DNA from: Desulfitibacter sp. BRH_c19 | Lineage (GTDB): Bacteria; Bacillota; DSM-16504; Desulfitibacterales; Desulfitibacteraceae | Direction of reading: 5' to 3' | NCBI GenBank assembly: GCA_001515945.1 | Contig: LOER01000041.1 | Location: 1 to 59,882 of the forward strand | Length of the DNA: 59,882 nt | Part shown: in pieces, positions 9,317 to 57,726 of the stretch | Layout of the letters: every line of letters starts with the position of its first letter | Numbering within the stretch: position 1 is the first letter of the stretch | Made by a program: the position numbers and the translations under genes | Notes under the pieces: generated by a model | Databases searched by the model: none | What the model was told of the DNA's origin: nothing | What the model saw: only the letters and a program-made list of their open reading frames with translations

Positions 9317-9640
9317 CCTCTCCCACTTTCACCTATCGGCTTAGAAGTGGGAGCTTCTTAAGTGCAAAAAGCCTTAAGAACTTTTCCTGCTTCATAGATT
9401 TCGCAACCTACTTTCTCCACAGGCTCTACCCGTAGTCCCTACGGTGATTTATTTATCCGATGACTACCGCCACTAGCCTTGCATGGGTTCAGCTATATCA
9501 ACAAGTTGACAAGTTTCACTCCAAGACTCCTATCTTCTACAAGTGGGAGATAAGTGGCGCTACGTCCCTGGATAACGGTTTCTAAAACTCAGATGGAGTC
9601 AAAACTCCACCTGAGTTAAGAATCCTGTTTATGCAATCTC
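9313..9640 (-). ncRNA. Candidate omegaRNA / right-end structured region of the TnpB element
   Basis: About 310 bases lie between the tnpB stop and the element end, on the tnpB sense strand. They can form a 14-bp hairpin (9586-9599 with 9604-9617, loop of 4) directly behind the stop, a CCGTAG/CTACGG stem at about 9431-9445, and the terminal CTCCCAC hairpin. In characterised IS200/IS605 elements the TnpB guide RNA derives from this position, with the guide taken from sequence just beyond the right end. The position fits; transcription and processing are inferred. Confidence 0.5.
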
Positions 9641-10744
9641 TGCAATTTCTAATAATCCCTGCTTTAGTATATTTAGGCTTGCATTTTTATCCCTGTCTAT
9701 ATCTTTGGTATGACAATTAGGACAATCCCATTTTCTAGTGTTTAGTGGTATTTCATCCAGAACATGGCAACAGTAATAACAGGTTTTAGAGCTTGGATAC
9801 CATCTATCTATTTTATGGATTGTTTTTCCATACCATTTTGCTTTGTATTCTAGAAAGGAATAAAACTTATACCAGCTGGCATCTGCTATGTCTTTTGATA
9901 GTTTATGATTCTTTATCATATTTTTTATTACTAGGTCTTCTAGGATTATGATTTGGTTTTCGTCTATAATCCTTTTTGATAGCTTATGTAGAGAGTCGGC
10001 TCTTTGTTGTTTTACTTTTTCGTGAAGTTTTGCAACCTTCTTTTTAGCCTTGTACCAGTTATTGCTGTACTTTTGTTTGTGACTCAAGCTTCTTTGTTCT
10101 CTTGCTAGTTTTTCCAGGGTTTTCTTTAGGTATTTTGGGTTTTCTATTTTTTCTCCACTAGATAGTGTGGCAAAGTGGGTTATTCCCAGGTCAATGCCTA
10201 TTTTACCTTTAGCTTTAGCTTTTTTATCTGTTGGCTTGATATTTGCTTCTGTAATAATAGATACAAAGTATTTTCCTGTGGGTGATTTGGATATTGTGGT
10301 ACTTATTATTCTGCCTTGTACATATCTATGGACTTTAGCTTCAATCCATTGTAGTTTTGGTAGTTTTATTGTATTTTTCTTGATTTGGATGTTGTTATTT
10401 ACATAGTTTACTGTATAGGTTTTTTTGTTATTCTTTTTATTTTTGAACTTGGGAAATCCTATGCTTTTGTCTCTAAAGAAGTTTTTGAAGGCCTTGTCCA
10501 GGTTTCTAAGTGACATTTGTAAGGATGTGCTGTCTACTTCTTTTAGCCATATGAATTCTTTTTTTAGTATTGGTAATTGGTTTTGCTGGTCAATATAGCC
10601 AATGCTTTTACCCTGATTTTTATATAGGTCTATCCTTTGGGCCAAGAAATAATTGTAGATAAACCTACTGCAGCCAAAGGTTTTTTCTATTGTTTGTATT
10701 TGTTCTTTGTTGGGATATATTCTAATTTTATAGGCCTTGTTCAT
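9629..10744 (-). CDS. tnpB: RNA-guided endonuclease TnpB family protein
   Basis: A 371-residue TnpB of normal length. It has the N-terminal helix-turn-helix/wedge region (MNKAYKIRIYPNKEQ), and RuvC motifs GIDLGI (Asp185), ILEDL (Glu269) and DIDRDKNAS (Asp350/352). A zinc ribbon carries Cys322, Cys325, Cys341 and Cys344. All catalytic and zinc residues are present, so the protein may be active. TnpB is an RNA-guided DNA nuclease that favours retention of its element and is ancestral to Cas12. Start 10744 is chosen because GGAAGGTG lies upstream; the longer frame to 10795 has no such site. Confidence 0.93.
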   Translation of the reverse strand: MNKAYKIRIYPNKEQIQTIEKTFGCSRFIYNYFLAQRIDLYKNQGKSIGYIDQQNQLPILKKEFIWLKEVDSTSLQMSLRNLDKAFKNFFRDKSIGFPKFKNKKNNKKTYTVNYVNNNIQIKKNTIKLPKLQWIEAKVHRYVQGRIISTTISKSPTGKYFVSIITEANIKPTDKKAKAKGKIGIDLGITHFATLSSGEKIENPKYLKKTLEKLAREQRSLSHKQKYSNNWYKAKKKVAKLHEKVKQQRADSLHKLSKRIIDENQIIILEDLVIKNMIKNHKLSKDIADASWYKFYSFLEYKAKWYGKTIHKIDRWYPSSKTCYYCCHVLDEIPLNTRKWDCPNCHTKDIDRDKNASLNILKQGLLEIAEIA

Positions 10745-11075
10745 TTTTAACACCTTCCAAAGTTCTCTATGGGTTACCTGCTTATATTGTACCAAACATA
10801 TGTTCTTTTGGAAAGTGTTGCATGTGTATTAGTGGTAATTTTTTTGGTTTATTCGCTTTGTCCAGCGAATTGGCAATTCATCTCCACCTTACGTTTTACT
10901 TAGAAGATGGAGACTTCTTGCCTAGGGTCGGTTAAATGACACAGATAACAGTTCCTTTTATCATATAAGTTTAAGCTCTCTATTAACACTCAATATCAAG
11001 ATCCTCATAGTCTTGCCCTCTTACCCTATAGGAATTGCTCCCAATCACGCCTACCATATAGAATCCTAATCGTTA
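10745..11075. other. Left end of the TnpB element and non-coding flank
   Basis: The first 190 bases are the left end of the TnpB element, ending in the TCTCCACC...GGTGGAGA-type hairpin near 10888-10922; a nearly identical piece is found at 16717-16775. From about 10940 to 11075 no gene, terminator or repeat was recognised. Confidence 0.6.
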
Positions 11076-11880: not shown

Positions 11881-12095
11881 CCACTACAAAATATGCCCTA
11901 TTATGAAATAGGAGGGAGATAAGTGGTACTAAGCCCCTGGATAACGGTTTCCCTAAAGGATTAGCTCAGCTACGCCAAACAAGTTGGCAAGTTTCGCTCT
12001 ATAATATTCATGGAGTCATTCAGTGAAACTTAGTTGGGTGCTTTTCCCTGAACTCTAGTTGAACTCATCCTGTGGGAAACTCCACCTGAAGTTAA
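11881..12095 (-). mobile_element. Scrambled remnants of the TnpB-element right end
   Basis: GGGAGATAAGTGG and CCTGGATAACGGTTT at 11910-11960 match 9544-9581 of the TnpB element. AACAAGTTGGCAAGTTTCGC near 11979 matches 9499-9520, and AAACTCCACCTGA near 12078 matches the hairpin behind tnpB. The order differs from the full element, so at least two truncated right ends are juxtaposed here. No tnpB is associated. The last piece overlaps the 3' end of the FapA gene. Confidence 0.75.
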
Positions 12096-14069
12096 ATTAT
12101 TTATTTTAATCTTCCCTTCAACCCCAACATACATCTTTACTCTTTCCATTTCCTCTTCAAAAAGATACGACTGGTTACCTAGTCGAACGATGGTTTCGGG
12201 ATGAACCTTATTTAAGGTAACAATGGCTTTATCAGATGTCTTTATTTTGATCTTGCCGGCAGACATACCTTCGGAACCTGCTTCATCCACAAGAATATCT
12301 TGGTTAGCAAGCATCTCACCACCTCTAAAGGTTCCATTGACTCTAATCTGTTTGCCTGCTATCAAAGAAGATTGATAACAGCCCTGACCGCCTACAATAA
12401 TGTTACAATTGGTTTCAAGGATACTACCCTGAGCATAAGAACAATAGATATCACATGCTTCCTCGGGGATAGCTTCCAAAATCTTAGTTATATTTTGATT
12501 TTTTTCACGGATGCTATTAACCTCATCATATATAGAAATATCCTTCCTCCACCTACTGGAAATTAAATTTTTAATAGCTGGTACTAAATCTTTAATTGTA
12601 GATGGAAATGGTATATCCTGTTCCTCTATGATAGAAATATATTCATTAAGAAGCTTTTCAAGTTCTGCTTTTTTGTAATCAATTAAATACACTACAATTT
12701 CATTAAGATATACTTCATCTAGCTTATTTTCATGTAGTGAGTACTCTCTAACTCTGATTGATTCCTTCATAATCCAATCCAATATTTCGTCCAACTTATC
12801 TAACAGTTTACTAACCCTGTTATAAAATGACGTTAATCCTCCCGCGCGAACTTTGCTTCCAAAAAATTTGCCTCTGCAAAATATTTTCCCGCCAGCCTGA
12901 ATGACTGCATCCGCTGCGTTCCCCATAATCGTAATTTCTCCATAGGCAGCCACTTGCATAGTTTCCTTGACATTACCAAGTATCATGAGGTCACCTTCAA
13001 AGCGTAGGTTACCGCTCTTAATGTCCACATCGCCAGGATGTATCATGCATTTAACAATTTTTATATATTTTTTTCTATAACCTTCTAACACAGGCCTTCC
13101 AGATATAGTGGCAATAGCCTTGCATCCATCATCACTAATTTTCACTCCATCTTTTACCTGCAGGTATGCTTCTTTAATAGGTTTTGGCAAAATATCTTTT
13201 CCTGTAACGTCCTTTCCAGGAAGACCCTCTTGCGCTGGATGCAAAACTGCCAGCACTTCTCCTTCCCGTACACCGGGAAAAGTATATCGTTCCCAGTAAT
13301 TCACCCATTCCTCTTCTCCATATTTTATCTCAACAGGTTCGCACTGAAACATATATTCCACAAAACCATCTTTGCCCTGATGCACAGGCTGCCCTCTTGC
13401 TACTACCCACCAATCTCCGTCGGCAGCGGCTATAGCTTTTTGTATTTCATTATGGTCAATACCAAAGGATACACCATAAGCCTGTAAAGCTTCTTCAACT
13501 TCGGTAAAGGTAATAACTCTTTTTTCAATCTTCTGCTGATGAGTGATCAATTGAAGCACATTTTGCCTGCTCTGGTCAACTAGTTGATGAAAAATAGTAA
13601 TTTGAGGGGTAATTCTAACTCCCGCAATAAGATTATCTTTGGAAATCTCAACCTCTAATTTTGCCTCTCCTATATTCTTAATAAGTTCAACTTCAACTTC
13701 CTCATCCTCACCTACTTGCCTAGATCCACGTGTTGGTACTCCATTTACACGCAGTATAGCTCCCGCTGCCGGAATAATCACCGCCTTTTTTCTCCCACCA
13801 CTTGGACCGTATACTTTAAGCACGCCTTCACTTATTTCAGCCATTCCGTCTTGTTCGCGTTCTTGTTGTTTTTGATAGCCCCTACTTTGGCCAGCATTTA
13901 TGATTACTTTTATAGTAGCTGGCTTCCTAAAAAATCCCCAAAAACCTCTTCGCCCTTTAGTTAGTATTTCAGTATGCATTATTGATTCATGTTCTTCAAG
14001 AAGATTTTGAACCACCATATGCGCTTCTTTTAAATTATCCCCATGAACTAATACCTCTCTTTTCTTCAA
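12030..14069 (-). CDS. FapA/DUF342-family protein with Jag-like N-terminus
   Basis: About 679 residues. The N-terminal ~60 residues (VLVHGDNLKEAHMVVQNLL, GRRGFWGFFRKPA) resemble the Jag N-terminal domain. A long DUF342/FapA region follows, with a polymer-forming beta-helix part (DVDIKSGNLRFEGDL, GNAADAVIQAGGKIFCRG) interrupted by a coiled coil. The role is unsettled; relatives affect flagellar or surface functions. A TTG at 14069 is the preferred start because AGGAGG lies eight bases upstream, while the GTG at 14078 overlaps that site. The last ~17 codons come from a mobile-element remnant. The c-di-GMP-related element upstream and the HD-GYP gene before it suggest c-di-GMP control. Confidence 0.85.
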   Translation of the reverse strand: MKKREVLVHGDNLKEAHMVVQNLLEEHESIMHTEILTKGRRGFWGFFRKPATIKVIINAGQSRGYQKQQEREQDGMAEISEGVLKVYGPSGGRKKAVIIPAAGAILRVNGVPTRGSRQVGEDEEVEVELIKNIGEAKLEVEISKDNLIAGVRITPQITIFHQLVDQSRQNVLQLITHQQKIEKRVITFTEVEEALQAYGVSFGIDHNEIQKAIAAADGDWWVVARGQPVHQGKDGFVEYMFQCEPVEIKYGEEEWVNYWERYTFPGVREGEVLAVLHPAQEGLPGKDVTGKDILPKPIKEAYLQVKDGVKISDDGCKAIATISGRPVLEGYRKKYIKIVKCMIHPGDVDIKSGNLRFEGDLMILGNVKETMQVAAYGEITIMGNAADAVIQAGGKIFCRGKFFGSKVRAGGLTSFYNRVSKLLDKLDEILDWIMKESIRVREYSLHENKLDEVYLNEIVVYLIDYKKAELEKLLNEYISIIEEQDIPFPSTIKDLVPAIKNLISSRWRKDISIYDEVNSIREKNQNITKILEAIPEEACDIYCSYAQGSILETNCNIIVGGQGCYQSSLIAGKQIRVNGTFRGGEMLANQDILVDEAGSEGMSAGKIKIKTSDKAIVTLNKVHPETIVRLGNQSYLFEEEMERVKMYVGVEGKIKINNLTSGGVSHRMSSTRVQGKAPN

Positions 14070-14090
14070 TTTGATCACCTCCTACTACTG

Positions 14091-14150
14091 TTGATATTCA
14101 TACTATGCTTTGCGTCATCACCTTTAGGCGATTTTGCCTTTATCAATTAG
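14091..14150 (-). promoter_or_regulatory. Shortened c-di-GMP-I (GEMM) riboswitch-like element
   Basis: The RNA-sense strand contains GGCAAA, a perfect 6-bp hairpin ATCGCC-TAAA-GGTGAT (14117-14132) and GACGCAAAGC, which are the ligand-core and P2 sequences of class I c-di-GMP riboswitches. TTGATA (14141-14146) can pair with TATCAA (14091-14096) as P1. The second arm, with its CTAAAC/GGTAGC-type tetraloop receptor, is absent: only about a dozen bases separate GCAAAGC from the closing strand. The element lies immediately before the FapA ribosome site, so any control would be translational. It may be a decayed riboswitch or a minimal variant. Confidence 0.55.
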
Positions 14151-14167: not shown

Positions 14168-15064
14168 TTATTCAGCTGATTTTGTCTCTGATAAAAGTAA
14201 GACCTCAAAAAAGTCATTAACTAAACAAGGGTCAAATTGTGTACCTGTACAGCAGGCCAGTTCAGAAATTGCTTCATCTCTAATCCTAGCAGCCCTATAG
14301 GGTCTATCGTTAGTAATAGCATCAAAAGCATCTACAATAGCAAGTATTCTGCACTCAATAGGCACTTCTTCTCCTTTTAAACCGGCTGGATATCCATGTC
14401 CATCCCATCTTTCATGATGTTTTAGGATTAACTCTGCAATTCTACTCAATGTAGGAAATCTTTTAGCAATATGATATCCCTTGATAGGATGCATTTTCAT
14501 TATTATCCACTCATCCTCAGTCAAAGGTCCTTTTTTGAATAAGATTGAGTCTGGTACTCCCACTTTTCCTATATCGTGAACTCGTGCTAAAAGTGATAAA
14601 TCCGACAACTGTGTTAAAGAAAGACCCACTCTTTGTCCAACACTTAAGCAAAGATTCTCCAATCTTGTCGCATGTCCATTGGCAACATAGTCACGTTCTG
14701 ACAAAACAGCCAGTAATCCATCAACTAGCTGTTCCTGGACATTCTCTAAAGAATAAAGGTTTGTTGCTTTAGTTTTGGTCCAGTTAAGCTGGTTTTCCCC
14801 CATTTCTGCTAATATATCTACGAATAAATTATAGAAATAATTAATTTCTCCTAAGTTTACAGTTTCCTGTGGTTGATCTACAACGACTTTTGCCATTACC
14901 TTACCTGCTACGGAGATAGGAAATTCTAAAATAGCTTGGGTCTTATGAATATCAGCACCCTCTTCATAAAGTTCACAGGATACACCAGTTATTTTTCGAT
15001 GAGAACTTAAAAGTTTTTCCAGCTTTGTTACGTCAATAAATTGGGCTAATAATTTAAAATTCAT
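14168..15064 (-). CDS. HD-GYP domain protein with PocR-like sensory N-terminus
   Basis: A 298-residue protein. Residues 1-~95 (FIDVTKLEKLLSSHRKITGV) resemble a PocR-type sensory domain. The C-terminal HD-GYP domain is complete: VHDIGKVGVPDSIL, HHERWDGHGYP and DAFDAITNDRPYR. HD-GYP enzymes hydrolyse cyclic di-GMP using a metal centre. The ATG at 15064 is taken as the start (GGAGG five bases upstream); a longer open frame runs back through the terminator and into the riboswitch and is not real. A c-di-GMP riboswitch in its leader suggests feedback by the enzyme's own substrate. FapA follows 98 bases later. Confidence 0.92.
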   Translation of the reverse strand: MNFKLLAQFIDVTKLEKLLSSHRKITGVSCELYEEGADIHKTQAILEFPISVAGKVMAKVVVDQPQETVNLGEINYFYNLFVDILAEMGENQLNWTKTKATNLYSLENVQEQLVDGLLAVLSERDYVANGHATRLENLCLSVGQRVGLSLTQLSDLSLLARVHDIGKVGVPDSILFKKGPLTEDEWIIMKMHPIKGYHIAKRFPTLSRIAELILKHHERWDGHGYPAGLKGEEVPIECRILAIVDAFDAITNDRPYRAARIRDEAISELACCTGTQFDPCLVNDFFEVLLLSETKSAE

Positions 15065-15138: not shown

Positions 15139-15176
15139 TTAAAAATAAATAACCTGTCCTTAAATAAAGGGCAGGT
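15139..15176 (-). terminator. Riboswitch expression-platform terminator
   Basis: A 10-bp stem, ACCTGCCCTT with AAGGACAGGT (one G-U pair), loop of five, is followed on the minus strand by TTATTTATTTTT. It lies between the riboswitch and the HD-GYP start, so ligand binding probably decides between termination and read-through. Whether binding turns the gene on or off cannot be told by eye. Confidence 0.85.
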
Positions 15177-15189
15177 AAATTCACGTGCA

Positions 15190-15280
15190 ATTTGCAACCT
15201 GGCAATCATAGCTTATTAATTGATTTAAGCCTTAGACCCATAGTTTTGCAGTCATTACCTTTCGGTAATTTTGCCCTTAA
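15190..15280 (-). promoter_or_regulatory. Class I cyclic-di-GMP riboswitch (GEMM-I)
   Basis: Minus-strand RNA reads GGGCAAA, hairpin ATTACC-GAAA-GGTAAT (GNRA loop), GACTGCAAAACTATGGGTCT, a variable P3 arm, then GCCAGGTTGC. These blocks match the clostridial form of the c-di-GMP-I aptamer, including the tetraloop and its receptor side. It sits about 130 bases before the HD-GYP gene and is followed by a terminator hairpin. Confidence 0.93.
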
Positions 15281-15322
15281 AAATACTAAAATTCTCATAT
15301 TAATTTTTAGTATAATATTTAT

Positions 15323-55890: not shown

Positions 55891-57510
55891 TTAATTGGAA
55901 TTTACAGGACCCGCTGATCCTGTAATAGTGATTTGGCGAACATCTGGTAGCCAATCCACAGAAAATCCTAGTGCTTCACTAATAAATCTTACAGGTACAA
56001 CAGTTCTGCCATCTTTAAGAATAGGAGGAGTATCTAAGGTGATTTCTTCTCCATCAATAATCGCTTTTGTGCTGTCTATATACAATGTAATTTCTGTGTC
56101 TTGAGTGATATAACTAACACTTCTATCAGTCGCATTCCAATCTATTGAAGCACCAAGTTGTTCTCCTATAAATCTAAAGGGTACTAAGGTTCTGCCATTC
56201 CTCATAAAAGGTGGTACATCCAGTATCATGGGTGAGCCATCAACAATAGCCTGCCCTTGCTCAAGGGTTAAAACTAAGGATTTCTCTGTATTTTGTGCAG
56301 ATTCTATCTCATCTATTATGGTTCGAAGCTGTTCAAGGGTCATTACATTATCTGTTGGAACGTTGACAGTAACACTCTGCAAGGGTACTAAGGTTTGGTC
56401 AATTTTAAACTCTACGTTAAACATTTCTTGTTGAGTAAACTGGTCAACATATCTAAAGCTTGTCTGTAGTGAGGTTTGGTAACTTTCATCTTCTAATTTT
56501 TCAAAGGCCACCATGGTATTGAAATTATTAAGAATATCCTTATATTCTGGACCTGCCACTTCAGCCCGAAACTCTCTTAAGTCTTCCTTAATCATTTCTT
56601 CGTTTGTAGTAACTTCCACTACCATCATATCCATTGTTCCTTTTATTTGCTCTTTTAGGTATACTGGATCCTCTTCTAATAGTATGGATAGGTCATTAAT
56701 TACTTCATCATCTGTAGCATCTATATAATCCTTTACATACATAGATAGCTCTTCAATATTATCTACGCTATATTCAATTAATGATATTAGAACAATCGCT
56801 AAGTCTTCAAGGTCGAAGGTAACAGTATACTTATTATTACCTCCTTCTACAATGTCCATGGAGTAATTATCATAAACATTTTTAATTAAGCCGTCTATAA
56901 AGTCATCAAAATATTTTTGGGTTGTTTTTGCCTTAACTGGATCATAGTACTTCATTAAAACATCCACTTGTTCTGGATCTTGCATGTCATAAATTAACAT
57001 CTCTTCTATATCTTTAAGGTCAATGGACAGATATTGGGTGCCCTCAAATATCTCCTTAACCATGTTCATATCATCTTCACTAAAGGTTTCTTCATCCATG
57101 AATATCTGTGCAAAGCTAAAGAGTTGCTCTATATCTATGTAGATGGTCTCTTGATTGTAGATTAAGGTGAAAAAATCAGTTGTTTCTTGATTATCTTTAT
57201 TTTTAAGCATAAGAATTAGGGAGCCTTGCTGTTCATCCAAATCCCACTCACTTAAATATGCAATATTATTCTCACCCAAAAATGCCTCTATTTTTTGCAT
57301 AGTAATCAGTTCACCTATATTCATTTCTGATGTAGCCAATTCATCGACAGATATATTAATTTCAATTTCTCCAGATTGCTCGTATTTGGTCAGCTGTTTC
57401 ATTTCGTTAATCATTTTATACAGTCCTAGTTCCGCTGTGCTACACCCAATAGTAAAACTCATAATCATTACAATAGCTAAAATTAAACTTAATAATTTCT
57501 TACCCTTCAC
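55891..57510 (-). CDS. Lipoprotein with C-terminal copper-amine-oxidase-N domains
   Basis: A 539-residue secreted protein. The signal peptide (KKLLSLILAIVMIMSFTIGC) ends with a lipobox Cys23. A ~380-residue unknown domain follows, then two stalk-type copper amine oxidase N-terminal units: VPPFMRNGRTLVPFRFIGEQ and TPPILKDGRTVVPVRFISEA. These domains are common on clostridial surface proteins and do not imply oxidase activity. The GTG at 57510 has GGAGGGG; the ORF to 57555 runs into the riboswitch terminator. A c-di-GMP riboswitch controls it. Confidence 0.88.
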   Translation of the reverse strand: MKGKKLLSLILAIVMIMSFTIGCSTAELGLYKMINEMKQLTKYEQSGEIEINISVDELATSEMNIGELITMQKIEAFLGENNIAYLSEWDLDEQQGSLILMLKNKDNQETTDFFTLIYNQETIYIDIEQLFSFAQIFMDEETFSEDDMNMVKEIFEGTQYLSIDLKDIEEMLIYDMQDPEQVDVLMKYYDPVKAKTTQKYFDDFIDGLIKNVYDNYSMDIVEGGNNKYTVTFDLEDLAIVLISLIEYSVDNIEELSMYVKDYIDATDDEVINDLSILLEEDPVYLKEQIKGTMDMMVVEVTTNEEMIKEDLREFRAEVAGPEYKDILNNFNTMVAFEKLEDESYQTSLQTSFRYVDQFTQQEMFNVEFKIDQTLVPLQSVTVNVPTDNVMTLEQLRTIIDEIESAQNTEKSLVLTLEQGQAIVDGSPMILDVPPFMRNGRTLVPFRFIGEQLGASIDWNATDRSVSYITQDTEITLYIDSTKAIIDGEEITLDTPPILKDGRTVVPVRFISEALGFSVDWLPDVRQITITGSAGPVNSN

Positions 57511-57541
57511 TTCATCCCCTCCATTTTTTAATGCAAAATAA

Positions 57542-57572
57542 AATCTCATAAGCAACGTTTGCCCATGAGATT
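57542..57572 (-). terminator. Riboswitch-linked terminator
   Basis: AATCTCAT/ATGAGATT form an 8-bp outer stem with an inner GCAA/TTGC stem, followed on the minus strand by TTATTTTG. It lies between the riboswitch and the GTG start, as an expression platform should. Confidence 0.8.
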
Positions 57573-57595
57573 CATCATACCTTTAAGAAAAACAT

Positions 57596-57672
57596 CCGGC
57601 AACCTGGCAGTCTTAACTCTGAAAGTCTTAGACCCATAGTTTTGCGTCCTTACTTTTCAGTAAGTTTGCTTT
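57596..57672 (-). promoter_or_regulatory. Class I cyclic-di-GMP riboswitch (GEMM-I)
   Basis: The minus-strand RNA reads AGCAAA, hairpin CTTACT-GAAA-AGTAAG, GGACGCAAAACTATGGGTCT, a short P3 arm, and GACTGCCAGGTTGCCGG. It shares GCAAAACTATGGGTCTAAG and GCCAGGTTGC with the riboswitch at 15190-15280. It should make the downstream lipoprotein respond to c-di-GMP through the adjacent terminator. Confidence 0.93.
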
Positions 57673-57726
57673 TTCATGTTCGTATAGAAATTTAGCATAA
57701 TATGTTAAATTACCCTACCTATGCTA

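Follow-up and report, generated by a model that had tools for sequence, protein, structure and literature searches.

The HD-GYP-fapA operon and its riboswitch

The window, the whole stretch of 59,882 nucleotides analysed here, carries on its minus strand an operon in which an HD-GYP gene precedes fapA. The upstream gene (14168..15064) encodes a c-di-GMP phosphodiesterase-like protein (Pfam HD_5, E = 1.7e-35) with both catalytic motifs, HDIGK and HHERWDGHGYP; its likely start is the ATG at 15064, with GGAGG just ahead. According to its Pfam matches (PF20250, E = 9.5e-36; PF03961, E = 5.1e-23), fapA (12030..14078) combines a Jag_N-like N-terminus, FapA_N and the FapA beta-solenoid. Its Shine-Dalgarno (SD) sequence AGGAGG is located at 14078..14083 and is followed 8 bases downstream by the likely start codon TTG (14069-14067). 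The two genes are separated by a spacer of 89 bases.

As noted in an earlier reading of the sequence alone, the leader of the HD-GYP gene contains a full c-di-GMP-I riboswitch (15190..15285, minus strand; RF01051, 71.8 bits). On its 3' side, the hairpin ACCUGCCCUUUAUUUAAGGACAGGU (15152..15176, minus strand; -15.8 kcal/mol, z -1.96) runs into a U-rich stretch and represents a probable attenuator; a strict terminator scan did not list this hairpin. The arrangement of the predicted hairpin and the U-rich stretch suggests that the full riboswitch works by transcription attenuation.

A second full c-di-GMP-I riboswitch of the window (57595-57680, minus strand; 80.7 bits) lies just upstream of a gene for a secreted-looking protein of 554 amino acids (55891-57555), which shows a weak match to an amine-oxidase model at its C-terminus. 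The window also contains an ORF for a TnpB-type RNA-guided nuclease (9629-10795, minus strand; NCBIfam IS200_TnpB, 474 bits). Another contig of the same genome (C23:55053-55780; L046 2053-2778) harbors a fapA pseudogene fragment with 77% DNA identity to window positions 12092-12806, which comprises only the 3' part of the gene, is interrupted by stops and a frameshift and has neither a leader nor the 5' part. A protein search for close fapA relatives in a collection of genome contigs found none.

An intact P2 domain in the fapA leader

The element considered here lies on the minus strand (14148-14090), which the sequence-only reading had left unstated. Its leader sequence UUGAUAAAGGCAAAAUCGCCUAAAGGUGAUGACGCAAAGCAUAGUAUGAAUAUCAACAGUAGUAGGAGGUGAUCAAAUUG is located 20 bases past the HD-GYP stop codon and directly 5' of the fapA ribosome site, so that the element adjoins AGGAGG (14083-14078) as had been proposed. 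A scan with the Rfam covariance model RF01051 assigned it 33.0 bits, below the gathering score of 35, with an E-value of 4.8e-5 for the 251 bases scanned and 1.8e-4 genome-wide. Among all RF01051 matches in the genome it takes rank 11, behind ten full riboswitches at 65-89 bits, and the next match below scores 16.6 bits.

The P2 domain of a c-di-GMP-I riboswitch is intact (14107..14138, minus strand) and reads GGCAAA-AUCGCC-UAAA-GGUGAU-GACGCAAAGC, with six of six stem pairs. The pattern GGCAAA-N16-GACGCAAAGC is matched without a mismatch at 14138-14107, where even with two mismatches allowed the window would be expected to hold 0.02 matches, and the P2 pairs reach a probability of 0.83-0.86 in the predicted ensemble. 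The P2 hairpin that the sequence-only reading had recognised is thus present, together with the equivalents of G20, C44 and A47-A49 (position numbering per PMC3764141). Because of this perfect P2 match and the distance between 33.0 bits and the next genome match at 16.6, the homology of the 5' half of the element to c-di-GMP-I riboswitches is real.

The UAAA loop of the hairpin was considered as a sign of decay and rejected. Among 398 genomes of the phylum, 27 contain P2 domains with a base other than G at the first loop position, 40 domains in all; one of them is a chance coding-like sequence and 31 others were read with their tails. Only the window element lacks P3 among these 31, and L218 shows a P3 with a 3' end that looks degenerate. 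UAAA loops with a receptor also occur in full riboswitches elsewhere. Judging from these sequences, UAAA is a tolerated loop variant and not a defect, and it is therefore uninformative on decay.

The P3 arm, the ligand pocket and P1

In c-di-GMP-I riboswitches, G20, A47, A48 and C92 play key roles in recognising the ligand, and the conserved core includes a pair between G83 of P3 and C44 of P2 (PMC3764141). The pocket is the P2-P3 junction, and the Cd1 mutants C81A and A24-26U have lost binding (PMC9262584). In the alignment of the element to RF01051, the P3 stretch is skipped, with 12 bases in place of 40 model positions, in agreement with the earlier description of a tetraloop-receptor arm that has shrunk to about a dozen bases. 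The tail of 24 bases (AUAGUAUGAAUAUCAACAGUAGUA; 14083..14106, minus strand), in which P3 and the pocket's 3' side would be expected, has no P3. A 3'-half profile derived from 35 full riboswitches (AUGA-nn-GCC-RGGYU-RCC) did not separate this tail from shuffled ones (P = 0.47), and its alignment to 39 short natural P3 tails remained at chance level (P = 0.53). By profile and by alignment against shuffles, the tail thus contains no detectable P3 3' strand and no context of G83 or C92, and the 3' half is absent. There is no P3 arm in which a bulged G83 could pair with C44; the C92 position in J3-1 is aligned to a U within a tail that has no 3'-half context, and the C in UAUCAA sits within the proposed P1. 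The pentamer UAUGA, which resembles the 3' half of the receptor and was considered as a residual P3 3' strand, is not above chance. The docking of a GNRA loop into a P3 receptor, typical of type I, has no counterpart either, as the loop is UAAA and the tetraloop receptor is missing. The ligand-core sequences that had been reported are therefore found on the 5' side, with C92 and the G83 of P3 undetectable on the 3' side. Tail length points in the same direction: AAAGC and GGAGG are 24 bases apart here, and the shortest natural translational c-di-GMP-I tail found to hold P3 and C92 has 31 bases, a minimum that leaves out two shorter tails as pattern accidents with GGAGG inside P3.

The closing P1 fared less well than the P2 hairpin. 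Its proposed arms, UUGAUA (14141..14146, minus strand) and UAUCAA (14091..14096, minus strand), are complementary, but the best duplex between flank and tail (-5.1 kcal/mol) is also attained in 5.6% of mono-shuffles and, for GC-matched stretches taken from the window, in 10%, and pairing beyond chance was not found (P = 0.056 and 0.10). The flanks are A/U-rich, and UACUA can also pair with UAGUA beside the SD. In the predicted ensemble, UUGAUA/UAUCAA competes with AUACUA/UAGUAU at a probability of about 0.2-0.25 each. P1 is not established by these predictions; such a helix is needed in Vc2 but not in Cd1 (PMC9262584). An isolated fold of 71 bases is better than shuffles (z = -2.45), while 116 bases of leader yield a z of only -1.10, and the fapA SD is predicted to be mostly accessible (unpaired probability 0.4-0.9 per base). 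Taken together, the earlier observation is confirmed for the P2 core, the loss of P3 and the genomic context, and not confirmed for the closing P1 and the 3' ligand core.

Related operons and the search for similar elements

The nearest relatives of fapA (G031, G246 and G294) share 48-49% identity, and an HD-GYP gene lies upstream of fapA in all three operons. For G031, which shows the same layout, a full riboswitch before the HD-GYP gene was confirmed. The HD-GYP-fapA spacers of all three contain no riboswitch sequence. Since the HD-GYP proteins of these operons share only about 40% identity in the catalytic domain, orthology of the whole operon is likely rather than certain. In other genomes, full c-di-GMP-I riboswitches directly precede fapA (L039/G036, L206/G010 and G050), so the downstream gene is the same as for the window element but the aptamers are full. 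On the basis of these sequences, fapA is a recurrent target of the c-di-GMP-I riboswitch.

Two pattern scans and a covariance-model comparison were applied to the search for further P3-less elements. Across the 398 genomes of the phylum, GGCAAA..GACGCAAAGC with AGGAGG 8-36 bases further on was matched 12 times; judged from the matched sequence, only the window's match reads as lacking P3, and the others are coding-like or have an ordinary P3 with AGGAGG within it or immediately behind it. A similar pattern with an added start codon, which covers SD-adjacent elements of set P2 length and misses others, was run over 84,980 GTDB species and yielded 101 stretches. No P3-less aptamer was found among the 80 loci listed and read; two of these are chance matches without a P2 stem, and all genuine aptamers among them carry P3. 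Viral contigs gave no match. In 21 relatives, RF01051 matches were either full (at least 45 bits) or noise (18 bits or less), with nothing intermediate like the 33-bit half. Within the genomes covered, the locus with the P3-less element is carried by one genome only, and the element is not conserved in relatives. One half of what, according to the sequence-only reading, would speak against it was a core that is not conserved in the fapA leaders of relatives, and this half was found: the three closest spacers have no element, and the phylum genomes and the 80 loci read from the GTDB scan yielded no P3-less relative.

The GTDB scan also returned three P3-less candidates (L092, L132 and L150) that were rejected, since they read as long or ordinary P3 arms. 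L092 and L132 are triple tandem c-di-GMP-I aptamer arrays in two MAGs of uncultured bacteria, in which the second aptamer has a long P3. In L119 and L136 (also L109), GGAGG lies in the 3' strand of P3, and an ATG follows closely in L119; because of this position, these aptamers may themselves contain the ribosome site.

Comparison with known c-di-GMP-I riboswitches

The element resembles type I riboswitches (Vc2, Cd1; RF01051, GEMM-I) in its complete P2 domain, in G20, C44 and A47-A49 and in its location in the leader of a c-di-GMP operon. It differs from them in the lack of the P3 arm, the tetraloop receptor, G83 and a recognisable C92, and in an unsupported P1. With the translational type II riboswitches of short P3 (for example L089, L095, L138, L147 and L120, L122 from Rossellomorea), it shares an SD directly behind the aptamer, and the P2 domains of L120 and L122 differ from it at 3 of 32 positions. 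However, type II riboswitches retain C92 and a short P3 complete with its 3' strand, and they span at least 31 bases from AAAGC to GGAGG, compared with 24 in the element. A set of short-P3 translational c-di-GMP-I riboswitches from Rossellomorea and Bacillus (L108, L114, L120, L122, L151, L164), all with the SD directly behind, likewise differs from the element at 3 of 32 P2 positions.

Since the published pocket is the P2-P3 junction and the element lacks P3, G83 and C92, binding of c-di-GMP in the canonical way is not expected. We regard the element as a truncated derivative of the c-di-GMP-I family and do not claim membership among its functional riboswitches, because P3 and C92 were looked for and not found and the gathering score was not reached.

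Origin and possible roles of the element

The sequence-only reading had left a choice between a minimal translational riboswitch and a decaying one; the lack of P3 and the absence of the element from spacers and surveys favour decay. Most probably, the element is what remains of a fapA riboswitch that was truncated recently and no longer functions, while the intact riboswitch ahead of the HD-GYP gene still controls the operon. A broken leftover is most likely because the element lacks the half needed to complete the pocket, and none of the relatives found has kept such a P2 half. The element would then be the surviving 5' half, the P2 domain, of a c-di-GMP-I riboswitch once located directly before fapA, and such an ancestral fapA riboswitch is plausible given the full riboswitches that directly precede fapA in other genomes. 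One deletion that brought the P2 hairpin to the ribosome-binding site would most simply explain the loss of the P3 arm and of the pocket's 3' side. With it, c-di-GMP sensing by the element was probably lost; translation of fapA from the operon mRNA would be constitutive, leaving the intact attenuator-type riboswitch at the entry of the operon as the only point of c-di-GMP control. A recent duplication of the HD-GYP riboswitch was rejected as the source, as its P2 (AUUACC-GAAA-GGUAAU, GACUGCAAAAC) is clearly different. One finding stands against a relic: the P2 domain shows no deviation from the variants of full riboswitches, which old, unconstrained decay would not leave. The truncation would therefore be recent, or the hairpin has been kept for some reason.

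A rival reading is a minimal working translational switch derived from c-di-GMP-I, in which P2 and a pseudo-P1 bind a ligand weakly or in an altered way and gate the ribosome site of fapA. Here UUGAUA/UAUCAA, lengthened by UACUA/UAGUA beside the SD, would alternate with AUACUA/UAGUAU. The intact G20, A47-A49 and C44, the position against the SD, the two flank pairings, which exclude each other and have similar predicted weights, and the 71-base fold (z = -2.45) agree with such a switch. It is nevertheless unlikely, as P3, G83 and C92 are absent, P1 does not exceed chance, the SD is predicted to be mostly accessible within a leader that folds at z -1.10 over 116 bases, and no relative appeared in any search run (398 phylum genomes, 80 of 101 GTDB stretches, 21 relatives). 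That a P3-less derivative senses a cyclic dinucleotide or a breakdown product through P2 and a rebuilt junction, thereby gating fapA translation, appears quite improbable. Such sensing would add a second, internal control point for fapA within an operon already under a c-di-GMP riboswitch, and ligand binding by the element would overturn the view of the P2-P3 junction as the minimal pocket.

Alternatively, a hairpin of riboswitch origin may have been co-opted and kept for a function that needs no ligand, such as stabilising the intercistronic region or marking a processing boundary between the HD-GYP and fapA mRNA. A fully paired P2 stem of predicted stability (0.83-0.86) within the 89-base spacer suits this role, which would also explain why the P2 half alone is intact; yet a stem would suffice for it, whereas the GGCAAA and GACGCAAAGC flanks are also perfect, and the hairpin is absent from the spacers of relatives. 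We consider this improbable as well. An assembly error or strain polymorphism, with a full riboswitch in the living genome from which the assembly dropped about 30 bases of the P3 arm, would account for a perfect P2 half without P3 at a locus seen in one genome only. However, ten other riboswitches are intact in the same assembly, and a clean deletion of the P3 arm is insufficient because the P3 3' strand and C92 are also missing from the tail, leaving this explanation with very little probability.

If the element is a relic, it would represent a clear example of riboswitch loss in an operon that retains a switch of its own at the first gene. It would also offer a useful negative control for those c-di-GMP-I features that are thought to be indispensable, namely P3 with G83, and C92.
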